Positions 25,852 to 41,301 of a DNA stretch of 64,000 nt are shown here, in pieces. The position numbers were made by a program, and so were the translations under genes. A model generated the notes under the pieces. The model was not told the origin of the DNA. It saw only the letters and a list, made by a program, of their open reading frames with translations, and did not search any database. The stretch covers positions 1,798,001 through 1,862,000 of the forward strand of contig JABTUK010000001.1 of NCBI GenBank assembly GCA_015075405.1, read 5' to 3'. The DNA is from Anaerolineales bacterium (GTDB lineage Bacteria; Chloroflexota; Anaerolineae; 4572-78; J111). The number at the start of each line of letters is the position of its first letter. Position 1 is the first letter of the stretch.

Positions 25852-28800
25852 TTGACCTACCAGATAGAAGCCAGTATGAAAGACGAAGCCAAAACCAAAG
25901 CGCAACTTCTGGCCGAAGTAGCCGCCTTGCGAGCGCGGGTAGCCGAGTTAGAAGCGGCTGCCGCAGCCGTCCCTAACACCCAGTGGATAAACTCGCTCCA
26001 ACAGAGCGAAGCGCGCTACCGGAGTTTGTTTGAGGAGTCGCCTATTTCGCTGTGGGAGGAAGATTTTTCGGCGGTAAAAGTCTACCTGGATGAATTACGC
26101 AGCCAGGGGATTACCGATTTTGAAGCTTACTTTGAGCACCACCCCGCAGAGGTAGGGCGGTGCGCCAAGATGGTCAAGGTGATAGATGTTAATCAAGCCA
26201 CCCTCAAGTTGTGTGAAGTCTCGGATAAAAAAGAACTGTATGATCTGGGGCAGGTATTTAGCGTCAATGAGTTAAACTTCTTTAAAGCAGAACTCATGGC
26301 AATTGTTAAGGGGGAAGCGCGGTTTAAGGGTGAAAATATCACCAATGTTTTTTTGGCTCCGGTAAAAAAATTTGTCAATCTTAGCTGGTCGGTGGCCCCC
26401 GGTTACGAGGACTCCTATGCCAAAGTTCTTGTTTCAATGGTAGATGTTACCGAACGCAAGCAGGCTGAAGAAGAAAGTCAACGCCGCCTGGCGCAACTGG
26501 AAGCCCTGCGCCAGATTAGCCTGGAGCTGTCTGCCGAACTTGACCTCGATACGCTGCTCAAATCTATTGTTCTGCACGGTATCAGGCTGCTGGAAGGAAC
26601 TACAGGCAGCATTTACCTTTATCGTCCTGAGCTTGATGCTTTAGAGTTAATTCTGGCAGTGGGGGATCCGCTGGCGCCGGTGGGAATAATCTTGCGGCGG
26701 GGCGAAGGCATGGGCGGCAGAATTTTGGAAACCCACGAACCGTTGGTAATAGATAATTATCAAGCCTGGTCAGGAGCAGTGACCTTTTTTAAAAATTATC
26801 CTTTTAACACTGCCATAGCTGTACCTATCCAGTTGGGGCTGGAATTTTTAGGCACGATTAATGTTGCCAACCGACCAGTCCCCTTCTCTACGGCCGATGT
26901 TGAGTTACTGAGCCTCCTTGCTACACAAGCGGCTATTGCTATCCGTAATGCTCGGCTGTTAGACTCTTTGCGACAAAGTGAACAGAGCTATAAAACCCTC
27001 TTTGCCATCGAGCGCCGGCAGGCCCAGGAAATCTATCTGTTAGAGCAGGTGCGGGCCGCTCTGGCCGGCGTGTGGGATATGTCCACCGTTTTGCGCACGG
27101 TGGTCGAAGCGGTGGCCGAAACTTTTGGTTACACCCAGGTGAGCATCTACCTGCTTGAAGGGGAAGTAGCGGTGCTGCAACATCAGGTAGGCTATCATCA
27201 AGTTATCACGCGGATTCCCATAAACCAGGGCGTTTCCGGGCGAGCCGTGCGCTCGGGCCAGCCGCTGCTTATCAAAGATGTCAGAACCGACCCCGATTTT
27301 TTGGGGGCCATCGAAGGACTTGTCTCTGAAATTTGTGTGCCGCTGTTTGACCAGGGGCAGGTGGTGGGCTTTTTTAATATCGAAAGCAGCCAGGGGGTGA
27401 TGCTGGACGAGGCCGACCTGCGGTTGATGGTCGCCTTGAGCGAACAGATCAACCTGGCCATTGGCCGCGCCCGGCTTTACACCGAAGCCAGAGAGAACGC
27501 CGCGCGGTTTCGCCAATTGGCCGAAAATATTCACGATGTTTTCTGGATAACCAACCTTGACGACACTGAAACTATTTATACCAGCCCGGCTTACGAAGCT
27601 TTGTGGGGGCGGCCGCTCCGAGATATTTATGAGCAGCCCAGGTCTTGGCTCGAAGCCGTTCATCCAGAGGATCGAGCCAGAGTCAGCGATGAATTTGAGC
27701 GGCGGGATAGAAGCAAACCCGCGTTCAACGAATACCGGATTATGCGGCCCGATGGCGTGGTGAGTTGGGTGCGGGAGCGCAGTTTTCCTATTTTGAACGA
27801 GGCGGGTGAAGTTTATCGGGTAGCCGGGATTATTGAAGATATTACCCAACGCCGGCAGACCGAGGAGGCGCTGCGCCAGAGTGAGGCCCGTTTTCGTAGT
27901 TTATTTGAAGGTTCGCCTATTCCGCTGTGGGAAGAAGATTTCTCGGCGGTTAAAGCCTATTTGGATCGGTTACGCGCCGGAGGGGTAACGGATTTTGAAG
28001 CCCATTTTGAACAGCATCCTGAGGAGGTATTGTACTGCGCCACCCTGGTCAAGTTTCTTGATGTCAATCAGGCGGGTCTTAAACTTTGCCAGAGCGACAA
28101 TAAAGAGGAACTCTTGGCCCTGGGGCAGAATATTATTCAGGAAGCATCCGAGTCATTTAAGTTAGAACTGCTGGCTATTGCCGCCGGCAAAACAAAACTT
28201 GAAAGTGAGCACCTCACCCAAATCGTTGGGGATAGGGAGATGCATGTGATAGTAACCTGGTCTGTGGTTTCGGGTTATGAGGAAAACTATGCCAGGGTTC
28301 TAATAGCTACGCTTGATATTACCAACCGTAAACGCGCCGAAGAAGCGCTCAAGGAAAGTGAGCGGCGATATCGTGAATTGGCTGAGCAAAACGCCGCGCT
28401 CTATGCCGAAAGCCAGAAACGCCTCATCGAGCAAGCTGCCCTGCTCCGGGCCATCACCGTTATCTCCTCTACTCTGGATTTGCCAACGGTTTTGAAATCT
28501 ATCGCCGAGCAGATGGGCTTGGCCGTAGGCGCCACCAGCGCCTATATTTGTAGCTATGACGCGGAGACAAAAACTAGCCAGGTACTGGCTGAATATCTTA
28601 GCCCGCATGCCTCGGCGGCGGAACGGGTGTCGGACTTAGGTGTGGTTTACCGCCTGCCCGGTGATTTACCCGTTGTTTTTGCCTTTATGCAATCTGATAA
28701 ATCGGCTCAAATTCAGCATGTTGATGATCCGAACATGCCCGAAGCCGAAAAACGTCATCTCCAACAATTTGGGGCATGGACTACATTACTGTTTCGCTTG

Positions 28801-29595
28801 CAGGTTAGTAACCAGTTGCTTGGCTATGCCGCTTTATGGGAAAGCCGGCAACGCCGGGAATTTACGGCTGATGAGATTGCCCTGTGTCAAGGGATTGCCC
28901 AACAGGCGGCGATTGCCATCCAGAATGCGCGCTTGCTGGAGCAGGCCCGCCAGGATGCTGAAACCAAAGCCATTTTGCTCAAAGAAGTTAACCATCGGGT
29001 TAAAAATAATCTGACCAGTATTATTGGTTTGCTTTATGCCGAACGACGCCATAAGGTTAACGCCGAAAGCCAGCCAATCCTGGATGAAATTATCCAGGAT
29101 TTGATCAGTCGCGTGCATGGGTTGTCTACGGTGCATAGTTTACTTTCTGCCAGCGAATGGGCGCCTCTATCGCTGAGTGAACTGGCTCATCAGGTTGTTA
29201 CTTCAACATTGCAAAGTTTAGCCTTAGATAAGCAAGTGGTGGTTGAGGTTTTGCCGGCGCCGGTGCAAGTCACCCCGCAACAGGCCAACAACCTGGCCTT
29301 AATCATTAACGAATTGACGACCAACGCCATGAAGTATGGTTTGACCGATCACCAACCGCTTCGAATCGCAATTAATATTGGCCAGGAAGGCGATCTAATT
29401 CTGTTGGAATTTAGAAACAGTGGACCCGGTTATCCCCAGGAAGTTCTGACTCTGAAACGCCATAATGTGGGGATTTATCTGATGCAAAACCTGGTGCATA
29501 AGGGCTTGAAGGGCCAGCTAAACCTGCGTAATCAGGGGGGAGCCGTAGCTACCATTTGTTTTCCGGTTTCGCCTCCGCTGAAAGGAAAAAGATGA
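25852..29595 (+). CDS. multi-PAS/GAF sensor histidine kinase, HisKA_2/HWE type
   Basis: Cytoplasmic kinase of up to 1247 residues. In order it has a coiled coil (10-45), PAS A (about 50-205), GAF 1 (215-370), GAF 2 (390-540), PAS B with PAC (545-670), PAS C (675-820), GAF 3 (850-1020), a HisKA_2 domain with His1048 in KEVNHRVKNNL, and an ATPase domain (about 1140-1240). PAS A and PAS C are internal duplicates (both SPI.LWEEDFSAVK.YLD.LR). The start may be TTG 25852 or ATG 25876. The stop overlaps the start of a response regulator gene by 4 nt, so the two form one signalling unit. Inputs are not evident. Confidence 0.9.
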   Translation: MTYQIEASMKDEAKTKAQLLAEVAALRARVAELEAAAAAVPNTQWINSLQQSEARYRSLFEESPISLWEEDFSAVKVYLDELRSQGITDFEAYFEHHPAEVGRCAKMVKVIDVNQATLKLCEVSDKKELYDLGQVFSVNELNFFKAELMAIVKGEARFKGENITNVFLAPVKKFVNLSWSVAPGYEDSYAKVLVSMVDVTERKQAEEESQRRLAQLEALRQISLELSAELDLDTLLKSIVLHGIRLLEGTTGSIYLYRPELDALELILAVGDPLAPVGIILRRGEGMGGRILETHEPLVIDNYQAWSGAVTFFKNYPFNTAIAVPIQLGLEFLGTINVANRPVPFSTADVELLSLLATQAAIAIRNARLLDSLRQSEQSYKTLFAIERRQAQEIYLLEQVRAALAGVWDMSTVLRTVVEAVAETFGYTQVSIYLLEGEVAVLQHQVGYHQVITRIPINQGVSGRAVRSGQPLLIKDVRTDPDFLGAIEGLVSEICVPLFDQGQVVGFFNIESSQGVMLDEADLRLMVALSEQINLAIGRARLYTEARENAARFRQLAENIHDVFWITNLDDTETIYTSPAYEALWGRPLRDIYEQPRSWLEAVHPEDRARVSDEFERRDRSKPAFNEYRIMRPDGVVSWVRERSFPILNEAGEVYRVAGIIEDITQRRQTEEALRQSEARFRSLFEGSPIPLWEEDFSAVKAYLDRLRAGGVTDFEAHFEQHPEEVLYCATLVKFLDVNQAGLKLCQSDNKEELLALGQNIIQEASESFKLELLAIAAGKTKLESEHLTQIVGDREMHVIVTWSVVSGYEENYARVLIATLDITNRKRAEEALKESERRYRELAEQNAALYAESQKRLIEQAALLRAITVISSTLDLPTVLKSIAEQMGLAVGATSAYICSYDAETKTSQVLAEYLSPHASAAERVSDLGVVYRLPGDLPVVFAFMQSDKSAQIQHVDDPNMPEAEKRHLQQFGAWTTLLFRLQVSNQLLGYAALWESRQRREFTADEIALCQGIAQQAAIAIQNARLLEQARQDAETKAILLKEVNHRVKNNLTSIIGLLYAERRHKVNAESQPILDEIIQDLISRVHGLSTVHSLLSASEWAPLSLSELAHQVVTSTLQSLALDKQVVVEVLPAPVQVTPQQANNLALIINELTTNAMKYGLTDHQPLRIAINIGQEGDLILLEFRNSGPGYPQEVLTLKRHNVGIYLMQNLVHKGLKGQLNLRNQGGAVATICFPVSPPLKGKR

Positions 29596-30197
29596 ACTCG
29601 ATCAAAAAAACCGGAGTCCTGATTGCCGATGACGATCCCCTGGTTAGTGAAATGATCCGGGGGACCCTGGAAGATTTAGGGTATGGCATTACCGGCGAAG
29701 CGACCAATGGCGGCGAAGCCGTTGAGCTTACCCGGCTCTTGCGGCCCGATATTGTCTTGATGGATATCGAAATGCCAGTGGTCAACGGTATCGAGGCCGC
29801 TCAACAGATTTACCTGACCTGCCCAACGCCCATCGTGATGTTAACGGCCTATGAAAATCCCGCTTTGGTCGAACAGGCCAGCCTGGCCGGAGTTGGGGCC
29901 TATCTCATCAAACCGCCCCGGGCGCGAGAGTTAGAACGGGCGATTACGGTGACAATGGCTCGCTTTAACGATATGATAGCGCTGCGCCGGCTCAATGAAG
30001 AACTTCAAGCGGCGCTGGATAATGTAAAAACCTTGCGTGGCTTGCTGCCCATCTGCGCTTCTTGTAAAAAAATTCGTGACGACGAGGGCTACTGGCAGCA
30101 GGTGGAAGTTTATATCCGTGACCATTCTGAGGCCGATTTCACCCACGGCTTATGCCCTGATTGTTTGTTGAAAATTTATCCAGATTTTTATGAATAG
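29592..30197 (+). CDS. response regulator with C-terminal CxxC...CxxC module
   Basis: 201 residues from the ATG at 29592 (ATGA overlap with the kinase stop). The receiver domain (about 8-125) has the acidic pocket ADDDP, phospho-acceptor Asp in IVLMDIEMPVVNG and the Lys of YLIKPPR. A short helix leads into CASCKKIRDDEGYWQQVEVY and HGLCPDC, a cysteine module found at the C-terminus of many bacterial signalling proteins that probably binds zinc. There is no DNA-binding domain, so the output is likely protein interaction. Confidence 0.88.
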   Translation: MNSIKKTGVLIADDDPLVSEMIRGTLEDLGYGITGEATNGGEAVELTRLLRPDIVLMDIEMPVVNGIEAAQQIYLTCPTPIVMLTAYENPALVEQASLAGVGAYLIKPPRARELERAITVTMARFNDMIALRRLNEELQAALDNVKTLRGLLPICASCKKIRDDEGYWQQVEVYIRDHSEADFTHGLCPDCLLKIYPDFYE

Positions 30198-30485: not shown

Positions 30486-30911
30486 TTACTGCCCCGGCGC
30501 GGGAATAGCCCCCAATTGCATCATCATGCCAATGTCGTCGTCGTGCCGCCAAAATTCGGCGATTTTGCCATCGGCCATCCGAAAGACCTCGATGCCGTTG
30601 ACGGCAATTTCTCGCCCGGTCGGGGCCAGATGCATGAATTGGCCGGTGTGCTTGGCTGTATGGGTATGCACTACCGAGACTAAATCGCCTTCGGCCAGGA
30701 TGTGATGAACTTTGACCCGGTGGCCGGGAAAGGCCGTGTCGAAGGTTGCCAGCAGTTGCTTGAAGGCATCTACGCCGGTGACAGTCCCCATAAATGGGTC
30801 GTGGGTAACGACATCCGCAGCATAAATCTCGTCAATGATGCTCCGCTTATCCTGGTTGAGCATTTCATCATAGACACGGCGGACAACAGCTTTGTTTTGT
30901 TCAGCAGACAT
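30486..30911 (-). CDS. SnoaL-like ester cyclase-family protein
   Basis: 141 residues from the ATG at 30911 (AAAGGGAG upstream). Single NTF2/SnoaL cone fold: EQNKAVVRRVYDEMLNQ, DPFMGTVTGVDAFKQLLATF, HTHTAKHTGQFMHLAPTGREI and the C-terminal signature MQLGAIPAPGQ. The family includes polyketide aldol cyclases and many small hydrolases/isomerases of unknown substrate. It is the first of at least six paralogues in 30-44 kb that share the same C-terminal LGxIPxPGQ ending. Confidence 0.85.
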   Translation of the reverse strand: MSAEQNKAVVRRVYDEMLNQDKRSIIDEIYAADVVTHDPFMGTVTGVDAFKQLLATFDTAFPGHRVKVHHILAEGDLVSVVHTHTAKHTGQFMHLAPTGREIAVNGIEVFRMADGKIAEFWRHDDDIGMMMQLGAIPAPGQ

Positions 30912-30979
30912 AAAATAACTCCCTTTCATTTTTGATTTTAACGGCTTGGTTTATTTTGCAAAGCAAGCTTTGCGACTCC

Positions 30980-33900
30980 TTAATTAAACTTTAACGGACA
31001 ACAATAATCATCAATCGCCGCCCAGAAAACGGCCAAATCTTCCGGGCGCAGTTCCAAATCCATCTTGTATAGGCCCGGCTGGATGGTGGTCTGGGCTAGT
31101 TTGACCAAGCTTAAGAGCTGCATGGTTACAATTGGGTCAATATATTCGGTTTTGACGCCTTTTTCGTGGCGGGCAAAAAAGTTGACCACCAGGCCATCGG
31201 CCAGCAAGACCACCCGCTTGGCCTGCCCATTGACGGTCAGGTGATAAATTGAGCCGATGTCGGGCCGGATTTCTTTGCGGATACTCACTTTTTGCCGGAT
31301 TTTTTGGGTGATATAATCGGCCACCTGAACCGGCCAGCGGGCCTCCTGTCCGGCGATTAATCCGATTGCTTTGGCCAGGGCAGGTTCAGCTTTGACCCAA
31401 GTTTGCAGGCTCTCCGCCGAAATCGGCCCGGTCAGCAGAGTTTGTAGGGCAGTAAAATCCTCCCCGGCCAGAAAACTGATGTTATCCCGGTAAAAATTGG
31501 CAAACCAACCCAGGCGCGTCTCGGCGGGGATGGCGGCGTCTACCTCAAGCCTGAGCAGCGCGTTCAAAAAGTCAATCGCCTTGCGAAATTCGTAATCCTT
31601 GGACGAGGCGCTGATGAGGGTCAACTCGTCCGTCCGGTTGGATGGATTGGGCCGGGCTAGAAAGTCATCCAGGTTTTTGGCGCTGAAAATGGGGTAGCCG
31701 GTGCTGCCGATAACGGTATCAATGCCGTTGCGGAGGGGCCGCGAGACATTTTTGAAGGTCAGCACGGTGAAAGCCGCCAGCAGCGTCACCGTTTTTTGGG
31801 TGTCCCCTTTTTGCAGCAAGTAGCGCATACCGCCGTCATCGGGCAGGGCTGCTGTCTCGACCTGCCGGTAGCCCGACTCCTGGGTGATGACATGCCACAA
31901 CTCTTGCAGGTCAGCATCCGGCAGGGGATAGCTGCTGGTCACGGCCAGTTCGCTGTAGCCTGACGAGTCGGCCAGGAAACCCTGGATGGCCTGGCCGATA
32001 GCCGGCAGGTTGGGCTGAAAAACCCGCTCGCTGTAGGGTTGGTCCAAAATAACCGGCAGACAGCTTTCGGTTACCTGGTAGCGCGGCAGGCGGCGATACT
32101 TGAGCCGGGTGGCAGCATAAGGCAGCGTCTGGGGGTCAATCTCCAGCGAGAAGGAACGATCCGAAATATCTACGGCAAAAACGTTGGCCGTGCTGTTGTG
32201 CAGGGCGGCCAACTGCTCAACCACGCGGGTGCCGATGGCCCCATTACCGCCAATCACCGCCACCCGGCGGGTCTGAAAGGTGGGCAGTCCCAGCCGCCCA
32301 AAGGAAGTAGCCGAGGCGTGAATGACCGCTTCGCCCACGCCCATGGCCTCAAACACGGCTTTGATGTCGCTGCGGGCGTTGGACAGCACCGGCAAAAGGG
32401 CCTGGCCGTTGTTTTCTTCGATGACCTGCAAATTTTTGCGCTCCCCGGCTACCGTCACCTCGACTACCCCGGCAATCAAACCATCGTCTACGGCAGCTTT
32501 GACCAGCGCATGGCGCGGATGTTGGCTGTTTTTGTAAATCTCGTAGATTTTAGCCACAATGTAGCCGCCGTCTTCATAGATAATCAACTGCTCCCCGCGC
32601 TCGCGGCACTTTTGCAGCGCCCCGGCCAGACGGTATTCGGCCAGGGCTTGCATGGCGGCCAGGTAGTCGCCGCTGATGGCCGGATTGCCATACAGGGCGG
32701 CAATCTCTTTTTCGGTTCGCGTTTCCAAAAACGAGGATTGGCGAAAGTCGAACTGGTAGCGGGTCGGTTGGGTGGGGTGGGTGATGAGCTTGAGCGACAT
32801 GTAGTTGTGGTTGGAGGCGTGGTCGAGCATGGTGATGTAATCCCAGTTGACATCGCCGTAAGGAATGCCGATGAAGGTGTCAATCTGGTAGCCCAAATCC
32901 TGGATGGTGCGCAAGGTGCGGGCGGTTTCGTGGGAGCGATGGTGGATGATGATGACTCGAAATTTGGCGGCATCTGTTTGGCTGCGGGGCAGGGTATCAT
33001 AGATGTACTTTTGCACCGGCATGGCAATGTTGGCAATAATTTGCCCGGCCCGGCTGCGGGTCGAGGCGGCTTCGTCGTCATAAATATACAGAAACAGGGC
33101 GGCGCTGCTGGCGCGGGTTTCGGGGTTGTAGACTGCGCCTTTGATTTGCCATTCCAGGGTGTAGGGGCGGGTGTGGTCGTCAATGGTTTTCCAGACCATG
33201 AGTTTGCCGGAGCGGCGGTCGGTGGCAGGCTGTAATTCATAGCGGCAGCTTCGCTCGGCAATGCGCTCGGAGATTTGGCCGGAGCGGATAATGGAAAAGA
33301 GAGCATTGAAAGCGACCGCGCCCGAAGGCTCGCCGGGGCCAAGCAAACGCTGCATAATGGCCGGTTCGCTGAAAAAGGAGATTTCTATCGTTTCTTTTTC
33401 CGGGAGGTGGGCCAACAAGCAGTTGGGGCCGGAGAGGATAAAATTCTCCGGGCTGCGAATAACCATCAGTTTTTGCAAGGGAATGATGGGGTTACACTCT
33501 TGCGTTTGGGCGGTGAGCTGCTCGACCAGCGCGGTGAGAAAATAGCTGGACAGCATGCTCTCGATGAGGCGGGTATTGCTGCCCCGCAGCTTGTCCGACA
33601 GGTCGCGGGTGATATTGTTCATAATTACCTGGGCTTGCAGGACGTTGTCAAACAGGTGGGGCGGCAGTACCAGCAGCCGGGTGTTGTCTTCAGTGGCGAC
33701 AATAGCGGCTTCGCGCGGCTGCTTATCAATCACCGCCACTTCGCCGAAAGACTCGCCCGGCCCAAAAGTGCGGATAATCCGGGTTTGGGTCGAGCCTTTT
33801 TCAACCGTGCCCAGCTTGGCCGGGTCAACTTGAACGGCCACCTGGCCTGCCAGCACAATGTAGATATCCCGCCCCACGCTGTTCTCGTCAAAAACCATCT

Positions 33901-34009
33901 GCCCTGCCTGGTAGGTAGCGATGGGGTTGGAGACCAACATGGCCTCCAGTTGTTCGCTTGAGAGTCCACACAAAATAGGGGCTTTTTTCAAGATTTCGAT
34001 GTCGAGCAT
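30980..34009 (-). CDS. cNMP-binding domain fused to an S-adenosylhomocysteine-hydrolase-like region
   Basis: 1009 residues. Residues 1-140 form a Crp-type cyclic-nucleotide-binding domain (QMVFDENSVGRDIYIVLAG, GPGESFGEVAVIDKQPREA). Residues 150-360 show no recognised domain. Residues about 350-620 recall the NAD-binding half of AdoHcy hydrolase: YEDGGY (478-483), GVVEVTVAG (514-522), SNARSDIK (543-550) and the Rossmann loop VIGGNGAIGTRVVEQL (585-600). The Asp-Asn pair that follows the lysine in real AdoHcy hydrolases is Glu-Ala here, so hydrolase activity is doubtful. The last 390 residues are unassigned. There is no membrane segment. It is a possible second-messenger-gated dehydrogenase or NAD sensor. 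Confidence 0.72.
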   Translation of the reverse strand: MLDIEILKKAPILCGLSSEQLEAMLVSNPIATYQAGQMVFDENSVGRDIYIVLAGQVAVQVDPAKLGTVEKGSTQTRIIRTFGPGESFGEVAVIDKQPREAAIVATEDNTRLLVLPPHLFDNVLQAQVIMNNITRDLSDKLRGSNTRLIESMLSSYFLTALVEQLTAQTQECNPIIPLQKLMVIRSPENFILSGPNCLLAHLPEKETIEISFFSEPAIMQRLLGPGEPSGAVAFNALFSIIRSGQISERIAERSCRYELQPATDRRSGKLMVWKTIDDHTRPYTLEWQIKGAVYNPETRASSAALFLYIYDDEAASTRSRAGQIIANIAMPVQKYIYDTLPRSQTDAAKFRVIIIHHRSHETARTLRTIQDLGYQIDTFIGIPYGDVNWDYITMLDHASNHNYMSLKLITHPTQPTRYQFDFRQSSFLETRTEKEIAALYGNPAISGDYLAAMQALAEYRLAGALQKCRERGEQLIIYEDGGYIVAKIYEIYKNSQHPRHALVKAAVDDGLIAGVVEVTVAGERKNLQVIEENNGQALLPVLSNARSDIKAVFEAMGVGEAVIHASATSFGRLGLPTFQTRRVAVIGGNGAIGTRVVEQLAALHNSTANVFAVDISDRSFSLEIDPQTLPYAATRLKYRRLPRYQVTESCLPVILDQPYSERVFQPNLPAIGQAIQGFLADSSGYSELAVTSSYPLPDADLQELWHVITQESGYRQVETAALPDDGGMRYLLQKGDTQKTVTLLAAFTVLTFKNVSRPLRNGIDTVIGSTGYPIFSAKNLDDFLARPNPSNRTDELTLISASSKDYEFRKAIDFLNALLRLEVDAAIPAETRLGWFANFYRDNISFLAGEDFTALQTLLTGPISAESLQTWVKAEPALAKAIGLIAGQEARWPVQVADYITQKIRQKVSIRKEIRPDIGSIYHLTVNGQAKRVVLLADGLVVNFFARHEKGVKTEYIDPIVTMQLLSLVKLAQTTIQPGLYKMDLELRPEDLAVFWAAIDDYCCPLKFN

Positions 34010-34230
34010 ACAGCTACACCTCGCTTTTATACTAAGTACACATTAAAATTTCCGTAGGACGGCATCCCTATGCCGTCCGCTGATGCATAGGGATGCGTCA
34101 GCTACGGAATTTTGAAATGCGTTGGGTATAGTTTGGATGGAGGGCTGGAGGATTGGAGGATGGATAAATTTCCAGCCCTCCAATCCTCCACTCTTCCAGG
34201 TTTATGACTGTGGGAGATTATTGAGTCTCA
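34010..34230. repeat. two hairpin elements upstream of the cNMP-domain gene
   Basis: 34045-34115: AAAATTTCCGTAGGACGGC... with the inverted ...CAGCTACGGAATTTT, related to the element at 21930-21995. 34134-34200: GGAGGGCTGGAGGATTGGAGG with CCAGCCCTCCAATCCTCC. No coding sequence is supported. Confidence 0.65.
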
Positions 34231-34608
34231 TTACCCCGTCATTGGCCCATCTACATTAAAAAGCACCGGCCCGCCGCCAAAGCGGACAATCACCAGGGCT
34301 TGTTCACCCTCGGTTGGATTCGATTCGCGGTGGATAGCACCTTTGGGGATATACAGATAATCGCCGGGTTCGGCCAGATAGACATCTTGGCCGCCGGGGC
34401 CACATTCCAGCCGGCAAGCCCCTTTTATGACGTAGGCAATGGTTTCCCACTCTCCGTGATGATGCCAGCCGGAGCGCATGCCCGGTTCGGTTTTGGCAAT
34501 GCCGGCCCACAAATGGTCGGTGTTAATGGCTTCCTCGCGGACCATGCCGGCGGTCTGCGCGGCGGCTAAGGCTCGTTCTGCCTCTCGCACCAGGGTTACG
34601 TTTAACAT
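34231..34608 (-). CDS. cupin_2 domain protein
   Basis: 125-residue single-domain cupin. Motif 1 is GWHHHGEWETIAYVIKG and motif 2 is GDYLYIPKGAIHRE. Together they supply the usual His/Glu metal ligands. The ATG has AAAGGGGG upstream. Such proteins are small dioxygenases, isomerases or ligand-binding proteins. The substrate is unknown. A second cupin gene lies immediately upstream on the same strand. Confidence 0.88.
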   Translation of the reverse strand: MLNVTLVREAERALAAAQTAGMVREEAINTDHLWAGIAKTEPGMRSGWHHHGEWETIAYVIKGACRLECGPGGQDVYLAEPGDYLYIPKGAIHRESNPTEGEQALVIVRFGGGPVLFNVDGPMTG

Positions 34609-34651
34609 GATTAGCCCCCTTTCTGTAGCAAACGGTATTCAATTCAGTTGG

Positions 34652-34704
34652 CATTGGAGTCCAAAGCTTGCTTTGGCTTTTCCAAAGCAAGCTTTGGACT
34701 CCAA
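34652..34704. repeat. inverted repeat GGAGTCCAAAGCTTGCTTTGG
   Basis: GGAGTCCAAAGCTTGCTTTG and CAAAGCAAGCTTTGGACTCC form a hairpin between the two cupin genes. Half-copies occur at 48893-48913 and, in degenerate form, near 30953-30977. Confidence 0.65.
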
Positions 34705-34717
34705 TTTTTTGAAACGC

Positions 34718-35086
34718 TCAAACCTCAAAGAAATCATCCGGCGTCCAGGGTGGGGCGCAAATGACCAGAAATTCCAGGTCTTCGGGCCGGTCGTTGAAAA
34801 CTTGATGCACTTCTCCCGGCAGGATCAGGCAGGATTGCCCCGGCGAAAGCGTAAATTCCTGGCCGTCAATCTGCATCCGGGCCTGGCCTTTGAGAATGTA
34901 GTATGTTTCCTCGAAGACTTTATGGTAATGCCGGGGCGATAACTTGCCTTGCGGCACGACCACGTGGGCCAGACTGTGTTTGGCTGCGCCCCCGGTTTCA
35001 GGCGTGCTGCCGATGAGTTCGTAGATCAATTCGCCCAGGGGGGCCAAAAACGGCTGGTCAATTTCTTCTTTGGTTATCACATGCAT
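34718..35086 (-). CDS. cupin_2 domain protein
   Basis: 122 residues from the ATG at 35086, with AAGGAG 6 nt upstream. The cupin motifs are SPRHYHKVFEETYYILKG and PGQSCLILPGEVHQVFN. The C-terminus (ICAPPWTPDDFFEV) is typical of mannose-6-phosphate-isomerase-like cupins. It shares the strand with the preceding cupin and lipoprotein genes, separated by a hairpin spacer. Confidence 0.88.
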   Translation of the reverse strand: MHVITKEEIDQPFLAPLGELIYELIGSTPETGGAAKHSLAHVVVPQGKLSPRHYHKVFEETYYILKGQARMQIDGQEFTLSPGQSCLILPGEVHQVFNDRPEDLEFLVICAPPWTPDDFFEV

Positions 35087-35135
35087 CGGCGGCTCCTTCG
35101 GTGAGTAAAAAATACGTTCCAATTTTAGATAGCCT

Positions 35136-35558
35136 CTAACTTCTGCCGCCGATGCCGTAGCCCCAATCGCCGCTGTCGCCCGGCTCTGGGCCGGTGAAGG
35201 GGCCGCCGCTCAAACCTTTGCAGTCGCGGATGTCGTTTTCCAGCGAGCCGACGCCAAAGATGCGTTTATCTTCGCCCAGATTAAAGACCAGATTGATCGA
35301 GCGGCCAATCGCCTGCCCGGTGACTTCGATTAAAGCGCCGTCGTTGGCGGTCAATTCCCCGGTCAGGTTGCCGGCGGCGTCTACCTGTAAAGATAAAGGG
35401 CCAACCAGCGACAGGCCGGCGCTCGGCCCTTGATAAATCGTGGCCTCAAAGTCGCCGGTACATTGAATGGTCTCGGCCACCGCCGAGGCTGCGCCGCAGC
35501 CGGTCAATCCCAGGACAAGTATAACCAAGCCGATGCTACCCAATAGAGTTCGTAACAT
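35136..35558 (-). CDS. small lipoprotein of unknown function
   Basis: 140 residues from the ATG at 35558 (AAGGAG 7 nt upstream). Upstream in-frame codons belong to a repeat spacer. The lipobox is LGLTGCG with Cys at about residue 21. The mature part is a beta-rich domain with ECxG-like disulphide candidates (QCTGDFEA, RDCKGLSGG) and a glycine-rich end, GDWGYGIGGRS. It resembles small exported beta-sandwich proteins, but I cannot name a family. Confidence 0.72.
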   Translation of the reverse strand: MLRTLLGSIGLVILVLGLTGCGAASAVAETIQCTGDFEATIYQGPSAGLSLVGPLSLQVDAAGNLTGELTANDGALIEVTGQAIGRSINLVFNLGEDKRIFGVGSLENDIRDCKGLSGGPFTGPEPGDSGDWGYGIGGRS

Positions 35559-35579
35559 GTGTTGACTCCTTTGAAAATA

Positions 35580-35645
35580 GACTGGGGACAGGAGACCGGA
35601 GACCGGAGATAAATGCCAGGTCAGCGGTCCCCGGTCTTCGGTCAT
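35580..35645. repeat. hairpin of GGAGACC words
   Basis: GGGGACAGGAGACCGGAGACCGG and GGTCCCCGGTCTTCGGTC arms lie in the spacer between the lipoprotein and DedA genes. Confidence 0.6.
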
Positions 35646-35736
35646 AATCGGGAAAATTTTCATCGTTGGTGGTGTGCCACAGCTTTGTGGGCGCTCCTTG
35701 AAAAAGATTTGCCCCCATTCTAGCCGCATGTGCTGC

Positions 35737-36480
35737 TCACTTTCCAGCCCAAAAAGTGCTCACTTTTTGCTCATTTTGGCCGGTGTGGGCCAGGGCAGCC
35801 AGGGCCAGGCAGGCCGGGCAGGCGGCTTCGGTCCAGGCGTGCAGCCGGTCCAGGGTTGACTCTTCCGGTTGCTGGCCTGACTTGCGGCGGCGCAAAAACA
35901 GCCAGCCCAGCAGTCCCAGAACGGCCAATCCCACCAGCACCGGCAGCAGCGGCAGATTGATTCCTTCCAGTAGTTCGGTGGCCGAGGGGCCAACCAGGTA
36001 GCCCAGAGCAATGTGCCAGGCATAAAAAATACCGCTGCCGCCCAGCATGGCCGGGGCAAACACGGGATAAGCCAGTCGAGCCAGGCCCGCGGCCGGGGTG
36101 ATGCCGGCCCGCGCGCCCGGAATATTCAAGCCAAAGAAGACAGCCGTCGCGCCGCGACGTTGCAGCAAGGCCATGGCCCGGTCCAACCGTTCACGGGTCA
36201 AGCCGATAAAACGGCCCAGGCGATAAATTACCTCTCGCCCGGCGCTGCGGGCAATCAAAAATTGGATGGAACCACCCACCAGAATGACCCCCAAAATCCC
36301 CAGCGTCAAGGCCAGCAGACCATAATCGCCGGTAGCCGCCTGTACCCCGGCGGTAATCATAATCAAGTCGGACGGGATTGGCACGGGCACGCCGATTTCT
36401 TTAAGCAGCATTATCACCAGGATGGCAAACAGGCCGTAAGTGGCTAAAAAATCGCCAAAAAATGTTGAGACAGATTCCAT
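35737..36480 (-). CDS. DedA/SNARE-associated (VTT) membrane protein
   Basis: 247 residues from the ATG at 36480 (GGAGGA 7 nt upstream). The DedA core has the family features EIGVPVPIPSDLIMITAG and RRGATAVFFGLNIPGARAGITPAAG, with five to six membrane helices. DedA proteins help maintain membrane potential and lipid flipping. The C-terminal 40 residues are unusual: a Cys-containing helix and an end (QKVSTFWAGK) encoded by a 42-bp sequence that also occurs at 43555-43596, so a repeat has supplied the stop region. Confidence 0.88.
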   Translation of the reverse strand: MESVSTFFGDFLATYGLFAILVIMLLKEIGVPVPIPSDLIMITAGVQAATGDYGLLALTLGILGVILVGGSIQFLIARSAGREVIYRLGRFIGLTRERLDRAMALLQRRGATAVFFGLNIPGARAGITPAAGLARLAYPVFAPAMLGGSGIFYAWHIALGYLVGPSATELLEGINLPLLPVLVGLAVLGLLGWLFLRRRKSGQQPEESTLDRLHAWTEAACPACLALAALAHTGQNEQKVSTFWAGK

Positions 36481-36498
36481 AGATTTATCCTCCAAGTG

Positions 36499-37338
36499 TT
36501 AGTCCGGCCATCGGGTTAAAACATGTTCTACTGCGGGATGCACTTCGGTTCGCAAGCGCAACGCCAATTGTTCGTCCGGCAGCTTTTCATTCGACTGAAT
36601 CAGCATTTGCCAGAGGCGTTGCAGCGTTTCCACTCCCCCGGCATCGAAAATGCGCCGGGCCGCCAGGTGAAGTTGGCATAGATACCAGACGAAGTTCGGT
36701 GGTTCCATATCCGCATACAAGCGTTCAAAATCGTCCAGGGTTTTATACGAGAGGTGAGCCACACCTCCGGCCATAATAGTTTTGGGGAAGGTTTCTAGGC
36801 GTGGTAGTTGCTCAGGCTCTTCGATGGCAGCATAGGCGTGCAGGCAAAGCTGGCAGAACAGTTCGACCAGCCAGCGGCGCGGCAAGTTGAAGTCAAAGGT
36901 ACCGGCCGCTTGATCGAGATAGAGATGGCCCATTTCATGCACTGCCAGCAAATTCATGTAGGCGGCCAGGTCAATGGAGCCGTCTGGCTGACCATAAGCC
37001 ACCTGCATCGCTTGAGCCACTGCCGGTGAAAGGTCTGCCAACGGCGGCGTGATCATTGTCCAAAGCTCACTGTTTTGGCCCGCAACGACAAGCGTGCGCT
37101 GATCAATCGTTTGAGGGACGCCGTACATGGGCGAGCCGGTACATTCTTGCCAGTGTTCGGGGGCAAGCACCAGGACACAAATCTCCGCTTCAAACTTAAG
37201 AGTCGGGCTAAGAAATTGGCAGGCTCTCTGGCAGCGGTTGGCAAATTCCCGCGCTCTCTGCTCTGTGTTCGGACTGAAGTAGAGGGTAACGTAAGGCCCT
37301 GGTAACTCAACCAGATTGGGGTACAATTTTGGGGACAT
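36499..37338 (-). CDS. putative zinc metallopeptidase (HExxH)
   Basis: 279 residues, cytoplasmic (no signal peptide). The motif VHEMGHLYLDQ places HExxH at residues 134-138. Glu159 in RWLVELF, 21 residues after the second His, is a fitting third ligand for a gluzincin-type site. The N-terminal part has PYVTLYFSPNTEQRAREFAN. I do not recognise the exact family. GGAGAG precedes its ATG. It follows the DedA gene closely on the same strand (19 bp). Confidence 0.75.
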   Translation of the reverse strand: MSPKLYPNLVELPGPYVTLYFSPNTEQRAREFANRCQRACQFLSPTLKFEAEICVLVLAPEHWQECTGSPMYGVPQTIDQRTLVVAGQNSELWTMITPPLADLSPAVAQAMQVAYGQPDGSIDLAAYMNLLAVHEMGHLYLDQAAGTFDFNLPRRWLVELFCQLCLHAYAAIEEPEQLPRLETFPKTIMAGGVAHLSYKTLDDFERLYADMEPPNFVWYLCQLHLAARRIFDAGGVETLQRLWQMLIQSNEKLPDEQLALRLRTEVHPAVEHVLTRWPD

Positions 37339-37471
37339 GCAAACTCTCCTAAAAATAATCTGCAGATTACACAGATTTCGCAGATAAAGATTAAAAATCT
37401 GTGTGCCTCGCGTTGACGGCCTACATTAGTTAGAAAGTCTCCTCTTTCTGCGCAATTTTTCGTTGATAGCT

Positions 37472-37939
37472 TTAATCTCCAATCTCTAATCTCGTTTCTT
37501 TTTGGAGAATAGCCTCAACCAACGCTTTGAGTTTTTGCAGGGCTTGTTCCGATTGCTGGTGCATCAACTTTTCCAACAGGTCCGGCTCAGCCACACTGGC
37601 GCCGAAATCTTCGGGGTGAAATTCCAGTTCGCGCTTAAATTCGGTGGTCGAGCCGCTGGCTTGAAACGAATAGCTGATTTTGATGCGCCCGCTTTCCATC
37701 AGCAGGACCACCCGCGCCGGGCGAGTGTGCTCCACCACCGTCCAGTTGCCTTCATAGGTCTTTCCCCCGATAACGGCCCGCTCGCGGATTTTGTCGCCCT
37801 GAAGCATAGGCCGCTCGGTTACGCCGCCGACGCCGGTGGTGGCCGGGTGCCACTGCGGCCAAAAGCGGGTGGTCGAGGCCAAATCAAAAACGGCTTCCAG
37901 GGGGCCGTGGATTTGAATGGTGTTGGTGACTTGAGCCAT
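37472..37939 (-). CDS. SRPBCC (START/Bet v1-like) family protein
   Basis: 155 residues from the ATG at 37939 (AGGAAC 6 nt upstream). Helix-grip fold: VTNTIQIHGPLEAVFDLASTTRFWPQWHPATTGV at the N-terminus and the long C-terminal helix EKLMHQQSEQALQKLKALVEA. Members bind hydrophobic ligands (polyketide cyclase_2 group). It is part of the cluster of small ligand-binding or cyclase proteins on this strand. Confidence 0.85.
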   Translation of the reverse strand: MAQVTNTIQIHGPLEAVFDLASTTRFWPQWHPATTGVGGVTERPMLQGDKIRERAVIGGKTYEGNWTVVEHTRPARVVLLMESGRIKISYSFQASGSTTEFKRELEFHPEDFGASVAEPDLLEKLMHQQSEQALQKLKALVEAILQKETRLEIGD

Positions 37940-37960
37940 AGATTTGTTCCTGAAAAGAGG

Positions 37961-38025
37961 CGATGAGGCGTGAGGCGAGGACGCGAGGAGGCGAAAATTC
38001 TCCTCGCGTCCTCGCCTCACTTTTA
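37961..38025. repeat. hairpin of GAGGCGAGGA words
   Basis: GAGGCGTGAGGCGAGGACGCG and CGCGTCCTCGCCTCAC arms. The same word theme forms the in-frame insert in glnE at 56908-56985. The right arm reaches the stop region of the acetyltransferase gene. Confidence 0.75.
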
Positions 38026-38901
38026 TCCATTGCGCCATAAATAGCGGTTGATACGGGTCTCACTGAGGCGAAAGCCGATGCGTTGATAGGCATGAACGCC
38101 CATTTCGGTGGCAAACAGCACGGCGTAGCGATAACCCATATCGCGGGCTTCGAGCAGCGGCTTGAGGGTAATCGCTCCGCCGATACCCTTCCCTCGCGCC
38201 GAGGGTACAGTGGCTACGGCATATACACTGGCCACCCCGCCGCCGTTGAAGAGCATATTGGTGGCAACCGCCTGGCCGTCTAAATAGCCCACATACATCT
38301 GCCAGGGAGTGCGGCCAATCCCCAACTGCCGGGTCGCATCTACCCAGGCCTGACCGGCCCATTCGGGGATTTCGTAACTTTCCACAAAGACGCGTTTGAA
38401 ATCCTCCAACGCGGCTTCAGCTTGCACTGCTTCAATGGTGAAGCCGGGCGGAACCTGCTTGAGAGCAGCCTCGTTCATGTCGCGCAAATCGGCGACCATA
38501 CCCGGCGCGCCCAGGGCGGTTTGTTTGATACCCTTCGCCAGCGCCTCCATCTGTCCTTCCATGGAGAGCAAGCCGCGGGCCATCAGCCGCTCGCCCAAAT
38601 CGTCCGGGGTTGTGCCCGGCCCGGTCCACCAGAACAGAAACGGCGCGTTGCGGTTTTTGAACCAGGCCAGGGTTTCGTCAATGGCCTCATCCGCTTCAGC
38701 GGCAGTCAGACGGGTACGCCAGACTCCTTTGAACATCGGGTTGGTGGGAAAGGCCAGGTGGCGGCTCAACTTGTTACCTTCGTCAATCTCGCTACCGGGC
38801 AAGGTTGCGGCCATAGCCCGGAACAGGTCGAACAGGTTTTCTTCGACGGCTGCGGCCAGTTCGGCCTCAGAGGGATGGGTGAGGATATTTTTGGTTTCCA
38901 T
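38023..38901 (-). CDS. GNAT-family N-acetyltransferase
   Basis: 292 residues. The acetyl-CoA-binding signature VATVPSARGKGIGGAITLKPLLEA (motif A, about 225-248) is clear, followed by GVHAYQRIGFRLSETRINRYLW. The N-terminal half is a second, degenerate GNAT-like region (DEAIDETLAWFKNRNAPFLFWW). The acceptor substrate is unknown. It is in the same strand cluster as the SnoaL-like genes. Confidence 0.9.
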   Translation of the reverse strand: METKNILTHPSEAELAAAVEENLFDLFRAMAATLPGSEIDEGNKLSRHLAFPTNPMFKGVWRTRLTAAEADEAIDETLAWFKNRNAPFLFWWTGPGTTPDDLGERLMARGLLSMEGQMEALAKGIKQTALGAPGMVADLRDMNEAALKQVPPGFTIEAVQAEAALEDFKRVFVESYEIPEWAGQAWVDATRQLGIGRTPWQMYVGYLDGQAVATNMLFNGGGVASVYAVATVPSARGKGIGGAITLKPLLEARDMGYRYAVLFATEMGVHAYQRIGFRLSETRINRYLWRNG

Positions 38902-38940
38902 TTTTTAATCTCCAACTCGGACAGGGCCTCAGTAACCGTA

Positions 38941-39354
38941 TCAGGTGGGGATATCCTCGCCAAAGTTTTCCTCATTGGAAACCCCAACCGAGCCGTGCCA
39001 CTGCACCACTTTCCATTCTCCATCCTCTTGATGGTAGACAATGGTCAAGCGAATAGGAAATTCGCTGCCGTCGGGCATGCGAAGCGCAGCCTGAGTGGCA
39101 GCCCAGCCCACATTGCCCTCCACGTAAGCCTGGGGATTGGCCCCCACGATAGACAACCCCTGCATCGCTTCTGACTGGGCCTTGAAGACGTCGGTAATGG
39201 TCTCATAACCTTCCCACCATTCGCTGGGGTCTGTGCCAATAGCCAGCACCCCCTCTTGCTGGGCAACGCGGCGGGTAAAAAACCCGAGACCCTCACCGGC
39301 AAAGGCTTCCAGGCCGCGCAAGGTGAGTTGTTTCAATTCATCTGATGCTTTCAT
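38941..39354 (-). CDS. SnoaL/NTF2-like domain protein
   Basis: 137 residues, GGAGG before the ATG. NTF2-like fold with DELKQLTLRGLEAFAGEG, TDPSEWWEGYETITDVFKAQ and an end that fits a SnoaL_3-type protein (RLTIVYHQEDGEWKVVQWHGS). It differs from the LGxIPxPGQ group around it and is probably a separate subfamily in the same cluster. Confidence 0.8.
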   Translation of the reverse strand: MKASDELKQLTLRGLEAFAGEGLGFFTRRVAQQEGVLAIGTDPSEWWEGYETITDVFKAQSEAMQGLSIVGANPQAYVEGNVGWAATQAALRMPDGSEFPIRLTIVYHQEDGEWKVVQWHGSVGVSNEENFGEDIPT

Positions 39355-39470
39355 TTTTTAACCTCCAAAGACTAAAGTTTCAACATTTCATAATTTTTGA
39401 TGTTCAAATCTGGTAGTGTTCTCTCGCAGCGGGGCTTGTCCTCGCTGCTCCAATGACCAAATTTGACCTA

Positions 39471-39887
39471 TTACGCCGGGGTTGGGATAGCGCCGATTTG
39501 CTGCATCAGGCCCATGATGTCAAATGCTTCTTGAAATTCTGCGACCTTGCCATCAACGATGCGTAAAATGCCCATCCCTGAAACCGCTATCTGTTTTCCA
39601 GAGGCCGGAACACCCTCGAAGTTGCCGGTGTGGGTTGCCCGCATGGTAAAACAAACTGCTACTTTGTCGCCTTCGGCGATGGTTTCCTCAACGGTTTGCT
39701 CAATGTCGGGGAAGGCGGCCCAGAACATAGCCCCCATTCCTTCGTGTTCGGCGGCGGTGATAGGTGGTCCCCCGTTTAGGCTGAAGGTGTAATTGGGGGC
39801 GGTCAGCGTCGCGGATAGTTTTCCCTTGAGCCGATCTTGTTCCTTATAAAAATTAATAGCGATGGCTTTGTTTGTTTCTGTTGACAT
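39471..39887 (-). CDS. SnoaL-like ester cyclase-family protein
   Basis: 138 residues from the ATG at 39887 (AAAGGAAA upstream). Motifs: ETNKAIAINFYKEQDRLKG, PPITAAEHEGMGAMFWAAFPDIEQTVEETIAEGDKVAVCFTMRATHTGNFEGVPASG with the terminal MQQIGAIPTPA. It is one of the tandem paralogues of this cluster, and the active-site pocket residues His/Asp of the family appear intact. Confidence 0.85.
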   Translation of the reverse strand: MSTETNKAIAINFYKEQDRLKGKLSATLTAPNYTFSLNGGPPITAAEHEGMGAMFWAAFPDIEQTVEETIAEGDKVAVCFTMRATHTGNFEGVPASGKQIAVSGMGILRIVDGKVAEFQEAFDIMGLMQQIGAIPTPA

Positions 39888-39975
39888 AAGTTGTTTCCTT
39901 TCTATTTTTATAGTTCCCGGCCAGCCTGCTCTGACCAAGGGATTAATTTGACTGCTGTAGGTTGGCATAAATAAA

Positions 39976-40182
39976 CTATCCCTGCCCCGGTGCGGGCGCG
40001 ACTCCGAGTTGCTGCATCAAGCCCAGCATGTCCATTTGGACCCAATTTTCCACTGCTTGACCATTTTCGATGCGCCACAGATCGCTGTAGGTAACGCTGA
40101 CCGATTTTCCGGTGGCCGGGATGCCCATGAAATCGCCCTGGTGAGTGCCGCGCCACATACCTCGGGTTGCTACTTTATCCCC
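39976..40182 (-). pseudogene. 5'-truncated SnoaL-like gene (C-terminal half only)
   Basis: About 68 codons remain, starting at GDKVATRGMWRGTHQGDFMG and running through the family end LGVAPAPGQG. The missing N-terminal half of about 70 codons is replaced directly by a palindrome (40193-40226). The closest full-length relative in the window is the gene at 41424-41846, which has GDKVATRITSRGTHQGELMG at the same place. No ribosome binding site precedes the remnant. Confidence 0.8.
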
Positions 40183-40192
40183 TTTTGTATAA

Positions 40193-40226
40193 AGACCCTA
40201 CAGGGTTTTCAAAACCTGTAGGGTCT
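40193..40226. repeat. perfect palindrome AGACCCTACAGG...CCTGTAGGGTCT
   Basis: A 12-bp perfect inverted repeat with a 10-bp loop (GTTTTCAAAA, itself able to extend the pairing) marks the breakpoint of the truncated SnoaL gene and precedes the stop of the DinB gene. Confidence 0.75.
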
Positions 40227-40232
40227 GCTTCA

Positions 40233-40763
40233 CTAAAACGGATATCCTTGCAAGCCTTGCAAGCCTTTCAGGCAGGCAATCTCGCCGGTGTGGGTGTGAA
40301 TATTAAAGACCAGAGTGCTTAAAAACGAACCGACGGTTTGCTGGCCCAGGCCCACCGCCGAGAGATCAAGCGGGCGGTTCAAATCCTCGTCGGAAAGGGA
40401 GGCCAGGTAACTATCGGTGGCTCCGTAAACGGCCTGGGCATAACCTCGCAGCGTGTCTAAGTCAACCCGCACCCGGCTGGCCCACTCATTCCAGGGGGGA
40501 GCTTGGGGCGGCATTTCGCTCAAGCCGATTTTGCCCTCCCAATCCGAAGCCATTAAAGGCGGCGTTCCCTTCAGGAGCATGTTGATCAAGCCATCTTCTG
40601 AGATAACAACATGGGCATAATTGGCCCCCAGAGGCTGGGCTTTGCCCGGCGGCGTCCAGTGAGCGTGCTCGGCGGCGACGCCTTGCACTGTGCCTTCCAA
40701 AAATTGATGCCCCATCTGAAACTGCTGGCGGAGCAACGAAACGGCATTATTTTGTATTGACAT
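40233..40763 (-). CDS. DinB/YfiT-like four-helix metal-binding protein
   Basis: 176 residues, AGGGGGT before the ATG. DinB superfamily: FLEGTVQGVAAEHAHWTPPG, ANYAHVVISEDGLINMLL and the C-terminal HTHTGEIACLKG provide the three-histidine metal site. The family includes thiol-dependent transferases and epoxide- or resistance-type enzymes. It is nested among the SnoaL-like genes on the same strand. Confidence 0.85.
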   Translation of the reverse strand: MSIQNNAVSLLRQQFQMGHQFLEGTVQGVAAEHAHWTPPGKAQPLGANYAHVVISEDGLINMLLKGTPPLMASDWEGKIGLSEMPPQAPPWNEWASRVRVDLDTLRGYAQAVYGATDSYLASLSDEDLNRPLDLSAVGLGQQTVGSFLSTLVFNIHTHTGEIACLKGLQGLQGYPF

Positions 40764-40784
40764 AATAGTACCCCCTAAAAATAG

Positions 40785-40866
40785 CTGATAGTGAACGGTT
40801 ATCAGTCATCAAAAATCAATGGACAGTAAACAGTCTAATTGATTACTGGACACTGTTCACTGATTT
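40785..40866. repeat. hairpin of AGTGAACAGT/ACAGTAAACAGT words
   Basis: GATAGTGAACGGTTATCAGTC and GACAGTAAACAGTC face TTACTGGACACTGTTCACTGAT. The vocabulary is the same as at 21717-21750 and 41390-41410. Confidence 0.6.
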
Positions 40867-40878
40867 CTTTTCATTCGC

Positions 40879-41301
40879 CTACTGCCCCGGCGTAGGGATG
40901 ACACCCAGTTGTTGCAGCATCCCCAGGGCATCCCAGTTTGTTCGCTGTTCGGTCACTTGACCATTGGTGATGGTGAGGATGCTAATGCCGGTCACGGTGG
41001 CCTGCTTGCCGGTGGGGGGCATGCCCATCAAGGGGCCGGTGTTGGTTCCGTGCGCGGTCCAACGCCCAACCACTTTGTCGCCTTCAATCATCAGGTCGTC
41101 AAGCGTCATGCGGATGTCGGGATAGGCGGTACGGTAGGTGGTGATAAGTTGTTTGTAACCTGCCGGGCCGGCCGGCAGGGGCGGCGTGCTGGGGTCATGA
41201 TTGGTAAAGTTGGCCGCCACCAGTTCGTCTGCGGGGGCCAGATTGCCGGTGTTGAAGCTTTCGGCCAGAAAATAATGCGCAATCGTTTTAAGGTCTGTCA
41301 T
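40879..41301 (-). CDS. SnoaL-like ester cyclase-family protein
   Basis: 140 residues, AAGGAG before the ATG. Motifs: DLKTIAHYFLAESFNTGN, ANFTNHDPSTPPLPAGPAGYKQLITTYRTAYPDIRMTLDD, MGMPPTGKQATVTGISI and the end MLQQLGVIPTPGQ. A full-length paralogue with intact pocket residues. Confidence 0.87.
   Translation of the reverse strand: MTDLKTIAHYFLAESFNTGNLAPADELVAANFTNHDPSTPPLPAGPAGYKQLITTYRTAYPDIRMTLDDLMIEGDKVVGRWTAHGTNTGPLMGMPPTGKQATVTGISILTITNGQVTEQRTNWDALGMLQQLGVIPTPGQ

Follow-up and report, generated by a model that had tools for sequence, protein, structure and literature searches.

A cyclic-nucleotide-binding domain fused to an altered S-adenosylhomocysteine-hydrolase-like region in an Anaerolineales bacterium: a candidate second-messenger-switched nucleoside enzyme

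In a stretch of 64,000 nucleotides from an Anaerolineales bacterium (contig JABTUK010000001.1, positions 1,798,001 to 1,862,000; hereafter the window), a single intact open reading frame (ORF) fills exactly positions 30980-34009 of the minus strand and encodes, from an ATG start, a protein of 1009 residues followed by a stop codon. The protein joins an N-terminal cyclic-nucleotide-binding (CNB) domain, a middle domain and a long region that resembles S-adenosylhomocysteine hydrolase (SAHH). With a probability of roughly 0.48, it is read here as a cyclic AMP (cAMP)-switched, nicotinamide adenine dinucleotide (NAD)-dependent enzyme that would act on an adenosine-like nucleoside through an altered, conserved SAHH-like site, and that would not be a hydrolase of S-adenosylhomocysteine (SAH). 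The sequence basis for this reading comprises the Glu and Arg of the CNB cassette, the GGNGAIG loop, the invariant Lys, Glu and Ser-Ser-Lys residues, the separate branch to which the protein belongs and the separate canonical SAHH gene in the same genome, while the fold is predicted.

A Pfam scan of the protein places cNMP_binding at residues 32-126, with E 1.8e-15 and a score of 57.1 bits that exceeds the cut-off of 27.5, which confirms the Crp-type sensor domain proposed in an earlier note on this DNA; a DUF1833 match stays below threshold (E 0.074). In the structure model, residues 316-1006 adopt the overall fold of SAHH, in agreement with the resemblance to this enzyme that the note had put forward. 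The similarity extends past the region marked at that time, as was first indicated by NCBIfam, in which residues 903-986 match the adenosylhomocysteinase model below threshold (E 0.025, 13.4 bits against 275, model positions 305-384 of 418). According to the structure model, the alignment and the predicted secondary structure, the approximately 390 residues that had been left unassigned belong to the same predicted fold, of which they form the second half, made larger by insertions. The middle domain (residues 174-315) has no PDB structural match of weight; the best, MAJIN, reaches a Z of 5.2, which is within the unrelated-fold range of the tool. The architecture is not covered by any sequence match in Pfam, NCBIfam or the PDB.

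A homologue search with residues 160-1009, in which only the 7995 candidates with the most shared words were scored, found 68 homologues with identities of 38-93%, mostly full-length. A profile search added 13 further members, mostly partial, which gives a set of 82 sequences including the present one. Conservation was counted over this set, fragments included, and rows with a gap in a column were dropped from the count for that column. Residues E479, D480, G481, Y483, E517, T519, K550 and E554 are identical in 76/76 rows, as are S800, S802, S803, K804, E807 and F808 in 78/78, G587, N589, G590 and G593 in 78/78, H356, H357, R358 and E361 in 73/73, and N943 in 75/75. The ordered SAHH landmarks that the earlier note had listed, EDGGY (479-483), GVVEVTVAG (514-522), SNARSDIK (543-550), FEA (553-555) and GGNGAIG (587-593), are all in place, and the identity of residues across the family (76/76 and 78/78 rows) indicates that these motifs are not due to chance. 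Asp614, present in 72/78 rows, suggests a preference for NAD over NADP.

The active site was compared between nine canonical SAHHs and 25 related proteins, which comprise 13 members of the CNB family, 11 short SAHH-like proteins and the intermediate protein P0083; aligned positions are given in human SAHH numbering. The Lys186, His55, Glu155, Thr157 and Asn346 positions are retained in all 34 sequences, and Asp131 is retained in the CNB family and P0083, whereas it is Val in 11/11 short proteins. In each of the 25 related proteins, Asp190 is replaced by Glu, Asn191 by A, S, G or T, Glu156 by V, I, G or Q, and the first Asp of DDG by Glu, so that the DN pair, found in 9/9 SAHHs, is found in 0/25 of them. 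The earlier observation that this pair is replaced by EA holds for the present protein and is refined for the family, in which Glu never varies at the first position and A, S, G or T occupies the second. The motif N-x-G-H-F becomes S-x-S-S-K in 24 of the 25 and S-x-A-S-K in the remaining short protein; the His301 position holds His in 0/25 rows, with Ser803 in 78/78 family rows. Residues Glu554, Ser803 and Lys804 occur in 25/25 rows and in none of the nine SAHHs. Measured against canonical SAHH, the protein therefore keeps Lys186 and lacks both the Asp190-Asn191 pair and the His301 of NxGHF, and it scores below the Pfam and NCBIfam cut-offs. A site conserved in this way across phyla seems not to be decaying, although this is no proof of catalysis. 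A separate SAHH gene above the Pfam cut-off is present in 6/6 family-bearing genomes (the host and five others, of which Symploca carries its family member as a fragment), which argues that the protein is an addition and not the housekeeping enzyme.

When PDB sequences are searched with the alignment that lacks the CNB part, only nine matches appear, all at E 0.21 or worse and none to SAHH; with the full alignment, the 60 matches listed out of 226 start at query residues 3-34, in the CNB part. One homologue, P0041, matches TIGR00936 ahcY at E 3.2e-6, below the cut-off. The relation to SAHH rests on the structure model and on short relatives. Two bridging proteins of 382 and 394 residues, from two cyanobacterial genomes, are found by the family profile (E 1.9e-7 and 7.3e-6) and also match Pfam AdoHcyase_NAD (E 2.4e-17 and 2.3e-17). 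The 382-residue protein matches solved SAHHs at E 1.4e-19 but, with 103.8 bits, stays under the curated threshold of 275 bits for adenosylhomocysteinase; a search at E 1e-5 finds 146 homologues of it, and several of the 120 listed carry the name adenosylhomocysteinase. On the short SAHH-like homologues this label is probably wrong, since they have other residues at SAHH catalytic positions. When a family profile built from 12 sequences without their CNB part is compared with one built from 21 short proteins, the match reaches E 2.9e-13 with a probability of 98%, as against E 0.078 or worse for ten shuffled controls and one reversed control, and the short-protein profile in turn matches the nine SAHHs at E 1.4e-25 (reversed control, 0.25). 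These nine SAHHs were taken from 23 loci (L021-L043), some of which hold the same gene, and minus-strand SAHHs were excluded.

A tree of the 34 sequences over 373 columns splits the nine SAHHs from the other 25 with an ultrafast bootstrap of 100; after re-rooting, the CNB family has a support of 82 and the group of short proteins with P0083 has 78. By alignment and tree, the protein belongs to a branch apart from canonical SAHH, for which the name SSK-type SAHH-like branch is coined here. Short members of approximately 375-390 residues with the same altered site (SxSSK, Lys...Glu) are encoded at L044:1054-2202 and L045:1048-2232, both on the minus strand, and a methyltransferase gene adjoins the short relative in both loci examined. 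P0083 (595 residues, from a metagenome) carries an SSK-type SAHH-like region with EDGGY after a different N-terminal part of approximately 210 residues.

The CNB domain, which exceeds the profile cut-off and carries both cassette residues, is assigned to PF00027. Glu90 is present in 64/64 rows and Arg99 in 61/64; in domains of the CRP and PKA types, these cassette residues hold the ribose and the phosphate. Class III cyclase domains are encoded in 6/6 family-bearing genomes, with 28 matches in the host, and in 5/14 genomes of a control set.

In the proposed mechanism, cAMP (or another cyclic nucleotide) would bind residues 1-155 and move the long helix 124-154, and the middle domain would relay this signal to the cleft between the substrate half (residues 316-560) and the NAD half. 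NAD held in the cleft would transiently oxidize a ribose hydroxyl with the aid of Lys550 and Glu554, which would permit elimination, dehydration or epimerization of the sugar; the keto group would then be re-reduced and the NAD recycled. A cupin encoded upstream may act on the same metabolite. The chemistry is modelled on AgmF and the switch on Bd1971. The chemistry of the proposed enzyme is probably new. A wider proposal is more tentative: a new kind of nucleoside chemistry would be under the direct control of a second messenger, by means of an SSK-type enzyme with self-recycled NAD, a cAMP sensor and a cupin, in a two-gene module that moves between phyla. The interpretation offered in the earlier note, a gated dehydrogenase or an NAD/nucleoside sensor, is supported in part.

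Several results weigh against an enzyme of this kind. The Pfam scan at E 1 finds no SAHH domain (AdoHcyase or AdoHcyase_NAD) in the 1009-residue protein, and the profile comparison with the nine canonical SAHHs yields a weak match, at E 0.0028 and a probability of 11%. Glu156, Asn191 and His301 of SAHH are replaced across the branch, and the SAHH chemistry could thus be lost altogether. At the CNB cassette, 18/82 rows have no residue; some of these are fragments and others start after the CNB part, as does the Okeania protein P0042 (873 residues), which indicates that the sensor is not needed in every member. Additionally, no cupin is found among the three neighbouring ORFs scanned at the Microseira locus (L011).

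The main rival, which is rather unlikely on the present evidence, is a non-catalytic sensor or scaffold, in which the SAHH-like domain would bind NAD(H) and/or a nucleoside and signal together with the CNB domain to a partner, like AHCYL1/IRBIT. The replacement of three SAHH catalytic positions is in its favour, and AHCYL1 and AHCYL2 provide a precedent: by their published description, they likewise have an SAHH fold, an extra N-terminal domain and changed catalytic residues, and they act via protein contacts without hydrolysing SAH (PMC12955632). These are, however, animal proteins whose N-terminal part is not a CNB domain (PMC12955632). The replacements in the present family are also invariant (76/76 and 78/78 rows) and recur in 12 relatives that have no CNB domain, namely P0083 and the 11 short proteins; this points to a site that has been changed rather than lost.

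A true SAH hydrolase under cyclic-nucleotide control is improbable. The SAHH fold is modelled and the His55, Lys186, Asp131 and Asn346 positions are kept, but the Asp190, Asn191, Glu156 and His301 positions are changed in 13/13 CNB-family rows, and a canonical SAHH is present in 6/6 genomes examined. Still less probable is a Pycsar-type anti-phage effector, in which infection would raise a cyclic nucleotide that is sensed by the CNB domain and the C-terminal part would attack NAD or nucleosides. The CNB part does match the PADLOC models of PycTIR and related effectors (E 2.4e-9, residues 22-150), and in PycTIR a CNB domain is described together with a second domain that cleaves NAD+ (PMC11224242). 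The match is nevertheless confined to the CNB part, no TIR domain appears in the Pfam scan, and a scan of 20 ORFs from 20469 to 45786 reveals no cyclase, whereas PycC is reported to be genomically linked to PycTIR (PMC11224242). A Crp/Fnr-type transcription regulator, as suggested by the names that homologues carry ("CRP-like cAMP-binding protein" or "Crp/Fnr family transcriptional regulator"; others are "hypothetical protein"), is the least probable of all, since the Pfam scan at E 1 finds no DNA-binding helix-turn-helix domain and an SAHH fold is modelled for the C-terminal two thirds; these names seem to reflect the CNB domain alone.

The preferred reading, a cAMP-switched nucleoside enzyme, can be compared with several known systems. 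The Pat acetyltransferase is under cAMP control. Like the present protein, Pat, Bd1971 and PycTIR are described as having an N-terminal CNB-type domain before an enzyme domain; their output domains are acetyltransferase, EAL and TIR, respectively, whereas here the output is SAHH-like. In the published account of Bd1971, the cAMP-occupied sensor keeps the enzyme active (PMC6717892). With SAHH itself (AHCY/ahcY), the protein shares the predicted fold, the motif order and the His55, Glu155, Thr157, Lys186 and Asn346 positions, but it departs from SAHH in the changes of Asp190 to Glu, Asn191 to A/S/G/T, Glu156 to V/G, His301 to Ser and DDG to EDG, has two large insertions and added CNB and middle domains and is below Pfam detection. 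The short SAHH-like proteins (approximately 375 residues) share the branch signature ExGG, E-V/I-T, Lys...Glu, SxSSK and NF, and lack the CNB domain, the middle domain and the insertions. AgmF of angustmycin A biosynthesis, annotated as an SAH hydrolase, is reported to refuse SAH and to dehydrate a nucleoside with tightly bound, self-recycled NAD+; a lysine is proposed near the 4'-OH, and the residues named in that account are His56, His299, Asp129, Lys185, Asp188 and Ser190 (PMC8599513). By this description, AgmF, an SAHH-annotated protein with NAD+-dependent sugar chemistry, resembles what is proposed for the present protein, and the account mentions no CNB domain.

No description of a CNB-SAHH fusion was found in the literature searched, which lacks most subscription journals. 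The SAHH fold is known, and what is new is the conserved active-site signature and the fusion to a sensor. SAHH is a textbook example among the enzymes of the methylation cycle, and the branch retains its fold and lysine while the rest of the site is rewritten under strict conservation, which points to a chemistry masked by the names "adenosylhomocysteinase" or "CRP-like protein". The fused form, if the reading is correct, would place this chemistry under direct second-messenger control in organisms rich in nucleotide cyclases.

Table 1. Features of the gene and its upstream neighbour, in window coordinates.
Feature	Position	Strand	Basis
Whole gene: CNB domain, middle domain, SAHH-like region	30980-34009	-	ORF; 68 homologues, mostly full-length
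Residues 1-155, CNB domain and long C-terminal helix	33545-34009	-	Pfam; predicted helices 124-154
Phosphate-binding cassette FGE...PR, Glu90 and Arg99	33704-33748	-	Conservation
Residues 174-315, conserved middle domain without clear structural match	33065-33490	-	
Residues 316-1009, SAHH-like fold	30983-33064	-	Structure model
HHRSHE 356-361, His357 in SAHH His55 column, Glu361 in Glu59 column	32927-32944	-	Alignment
EDGGY 479-483, at SAHH DDGGD motif	32561-32575	-	Conservation, alignment
GVVEVTVAG 514-522, at SAHH GxxEETTTG motif, second Glu gone	32444-32470	-	Conservation, alignment
Lys550-Ala555, Lys186 retained, Asp190 to Glu554, Asn191 to Ala555	32345-32362	-	Conservation, alignment
GGNGAIG 587-593, dinucleotide-binding loop	32231-32251	-	Conservation
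Asp614, after second strand of NAD part	32168-32170	-	Conservation
Residues ~620-760, probable insertion in NAD part relative to SAHH, borders approximate	31730-32152	-	Alignment and predicted secondary structure
SASSKDYEF 800-808, replacing SAHH NxGHFDxEI motif	31586-31612	-	Conservation, alignment
Residues ~823-907, probable, mainly helical insertion, borders approximate	31289-31543	-	Alignment and predicted secondary structure
LADGLVVNFF 936-945, at SAHH LxEGRLVNL motif	31175-31204	-	N943 in 75/75; NCBIfam match, alignment
Single-domain cupin gene, 221 bases upstream of CNB gene, inverted repeats between	34231-34608	-	Cupin_2, E 7.3e-11

The named cyanobacterial sources of the family are Okeania, Moorena, Microseira, Aerosakkonema, Scytonema and Richelia, with a fragment in Symploca; the other named sources are one Chloroflexi metagenome-assembled genome (MAG), Planctomycetes MAGs and Bryobacteraceae/Bryobacterales MAGs. 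The genome sets searched overlap, and each count includes the genome at its centre. The own genome is the only one with the family among 61 in the search of relatives and among 400 in a phylum sample; the Bryobacterales genome is the only one among 299 of its class and Microseira the only one among 10 of its family. The 386 genomes of the phylum of Microseira hold one family member (Microseira itself) and two genomes with shorter relatives. The fused form is rare and its distribution patchy. No relative is found in the viral contigs searched, the sole match at E 0.001 or better in a viral structure library is a CRP-like protein, and the eight matches in plasmid records each span 10-15% of the query, within the CNB part. 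In P0081 (480 residues) and P0072 (532 residues), for both of which the longest contig has 9492 bases, the CNB and SAHH-like parts stand apart, and the genome concerned may thus have a split gene.

Upstream sequence is available at five loci (the window, L010, L011, L012 and L013); L009 starts inside the gene. A same-strand cupin gene lies upstream in four of the five. At L010 (Bryobacterales), a Cupin_2 gene directly upstream is 62% identical to the window cupin, and its last 8 bases overlap the point at which the CNB gene presumably begins (ATGACTAG), an arrangement like that of coupled genes. A Cupin_5 (DUF985) gene is located just upstream of the family fragment of Symploca (L013), and a Cupin_5 gene is also upstream in Richelia (L012), with IS200/IS605-type transposase genes between. 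Because the cyanobacterial cupins are in a different Pfam family, the type of protein recurs rather than one gene. At L011, the directly upstream ORF and the downstream ORF 13296-13940 have no Pfam match, and a further downstream ORF encodes an EF-hand protein. At E 1e-20, the window cupin is found in its own genome only among the 61 searched; since the CNB gene is confined in the same way, the two may have arrived together. The upstream cupin is a probable partner of the CNB-SAHH-like protein.

The downstream SnoaL gene (30486-30929) was rejected as a partner, as the downstream gene at L009 has no Pfam match and that at L010 encodes a sensor kinase. Small ORFs of L009 and L010 were also rejected as SnoaL relatives, because alignment showed no relation and the L010 ORF is a cupin. 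Inverted repeats occur near the window cupin at 34062-34096, 34138-34198 and 34653-34705, including one perfect 24-base palindrome with a 5-base loop, and look like small mobile or terminator-like elements. From the cupin gene, a run of small same-strand genes (34231-41301, minus strand) encodes cupin, SnoaL, SnoaL_3 and polyketide-cyclase-like domains and a DinB-type protein. On the plus strand, 25852-30197 encodes a GAF/PAS sensor kinase of 1247 residues that contains a region of the HWE/HisKA_2 type, and a response-regulator gene overlaps that of the kinase. The Richelia copy is flanked by cyclodipeptide-synthase-like genes at L012:6082-6993 and 13273-14115, both on the minus strand, which score 17.6 and 26.6 bits against a cut-off of 27.

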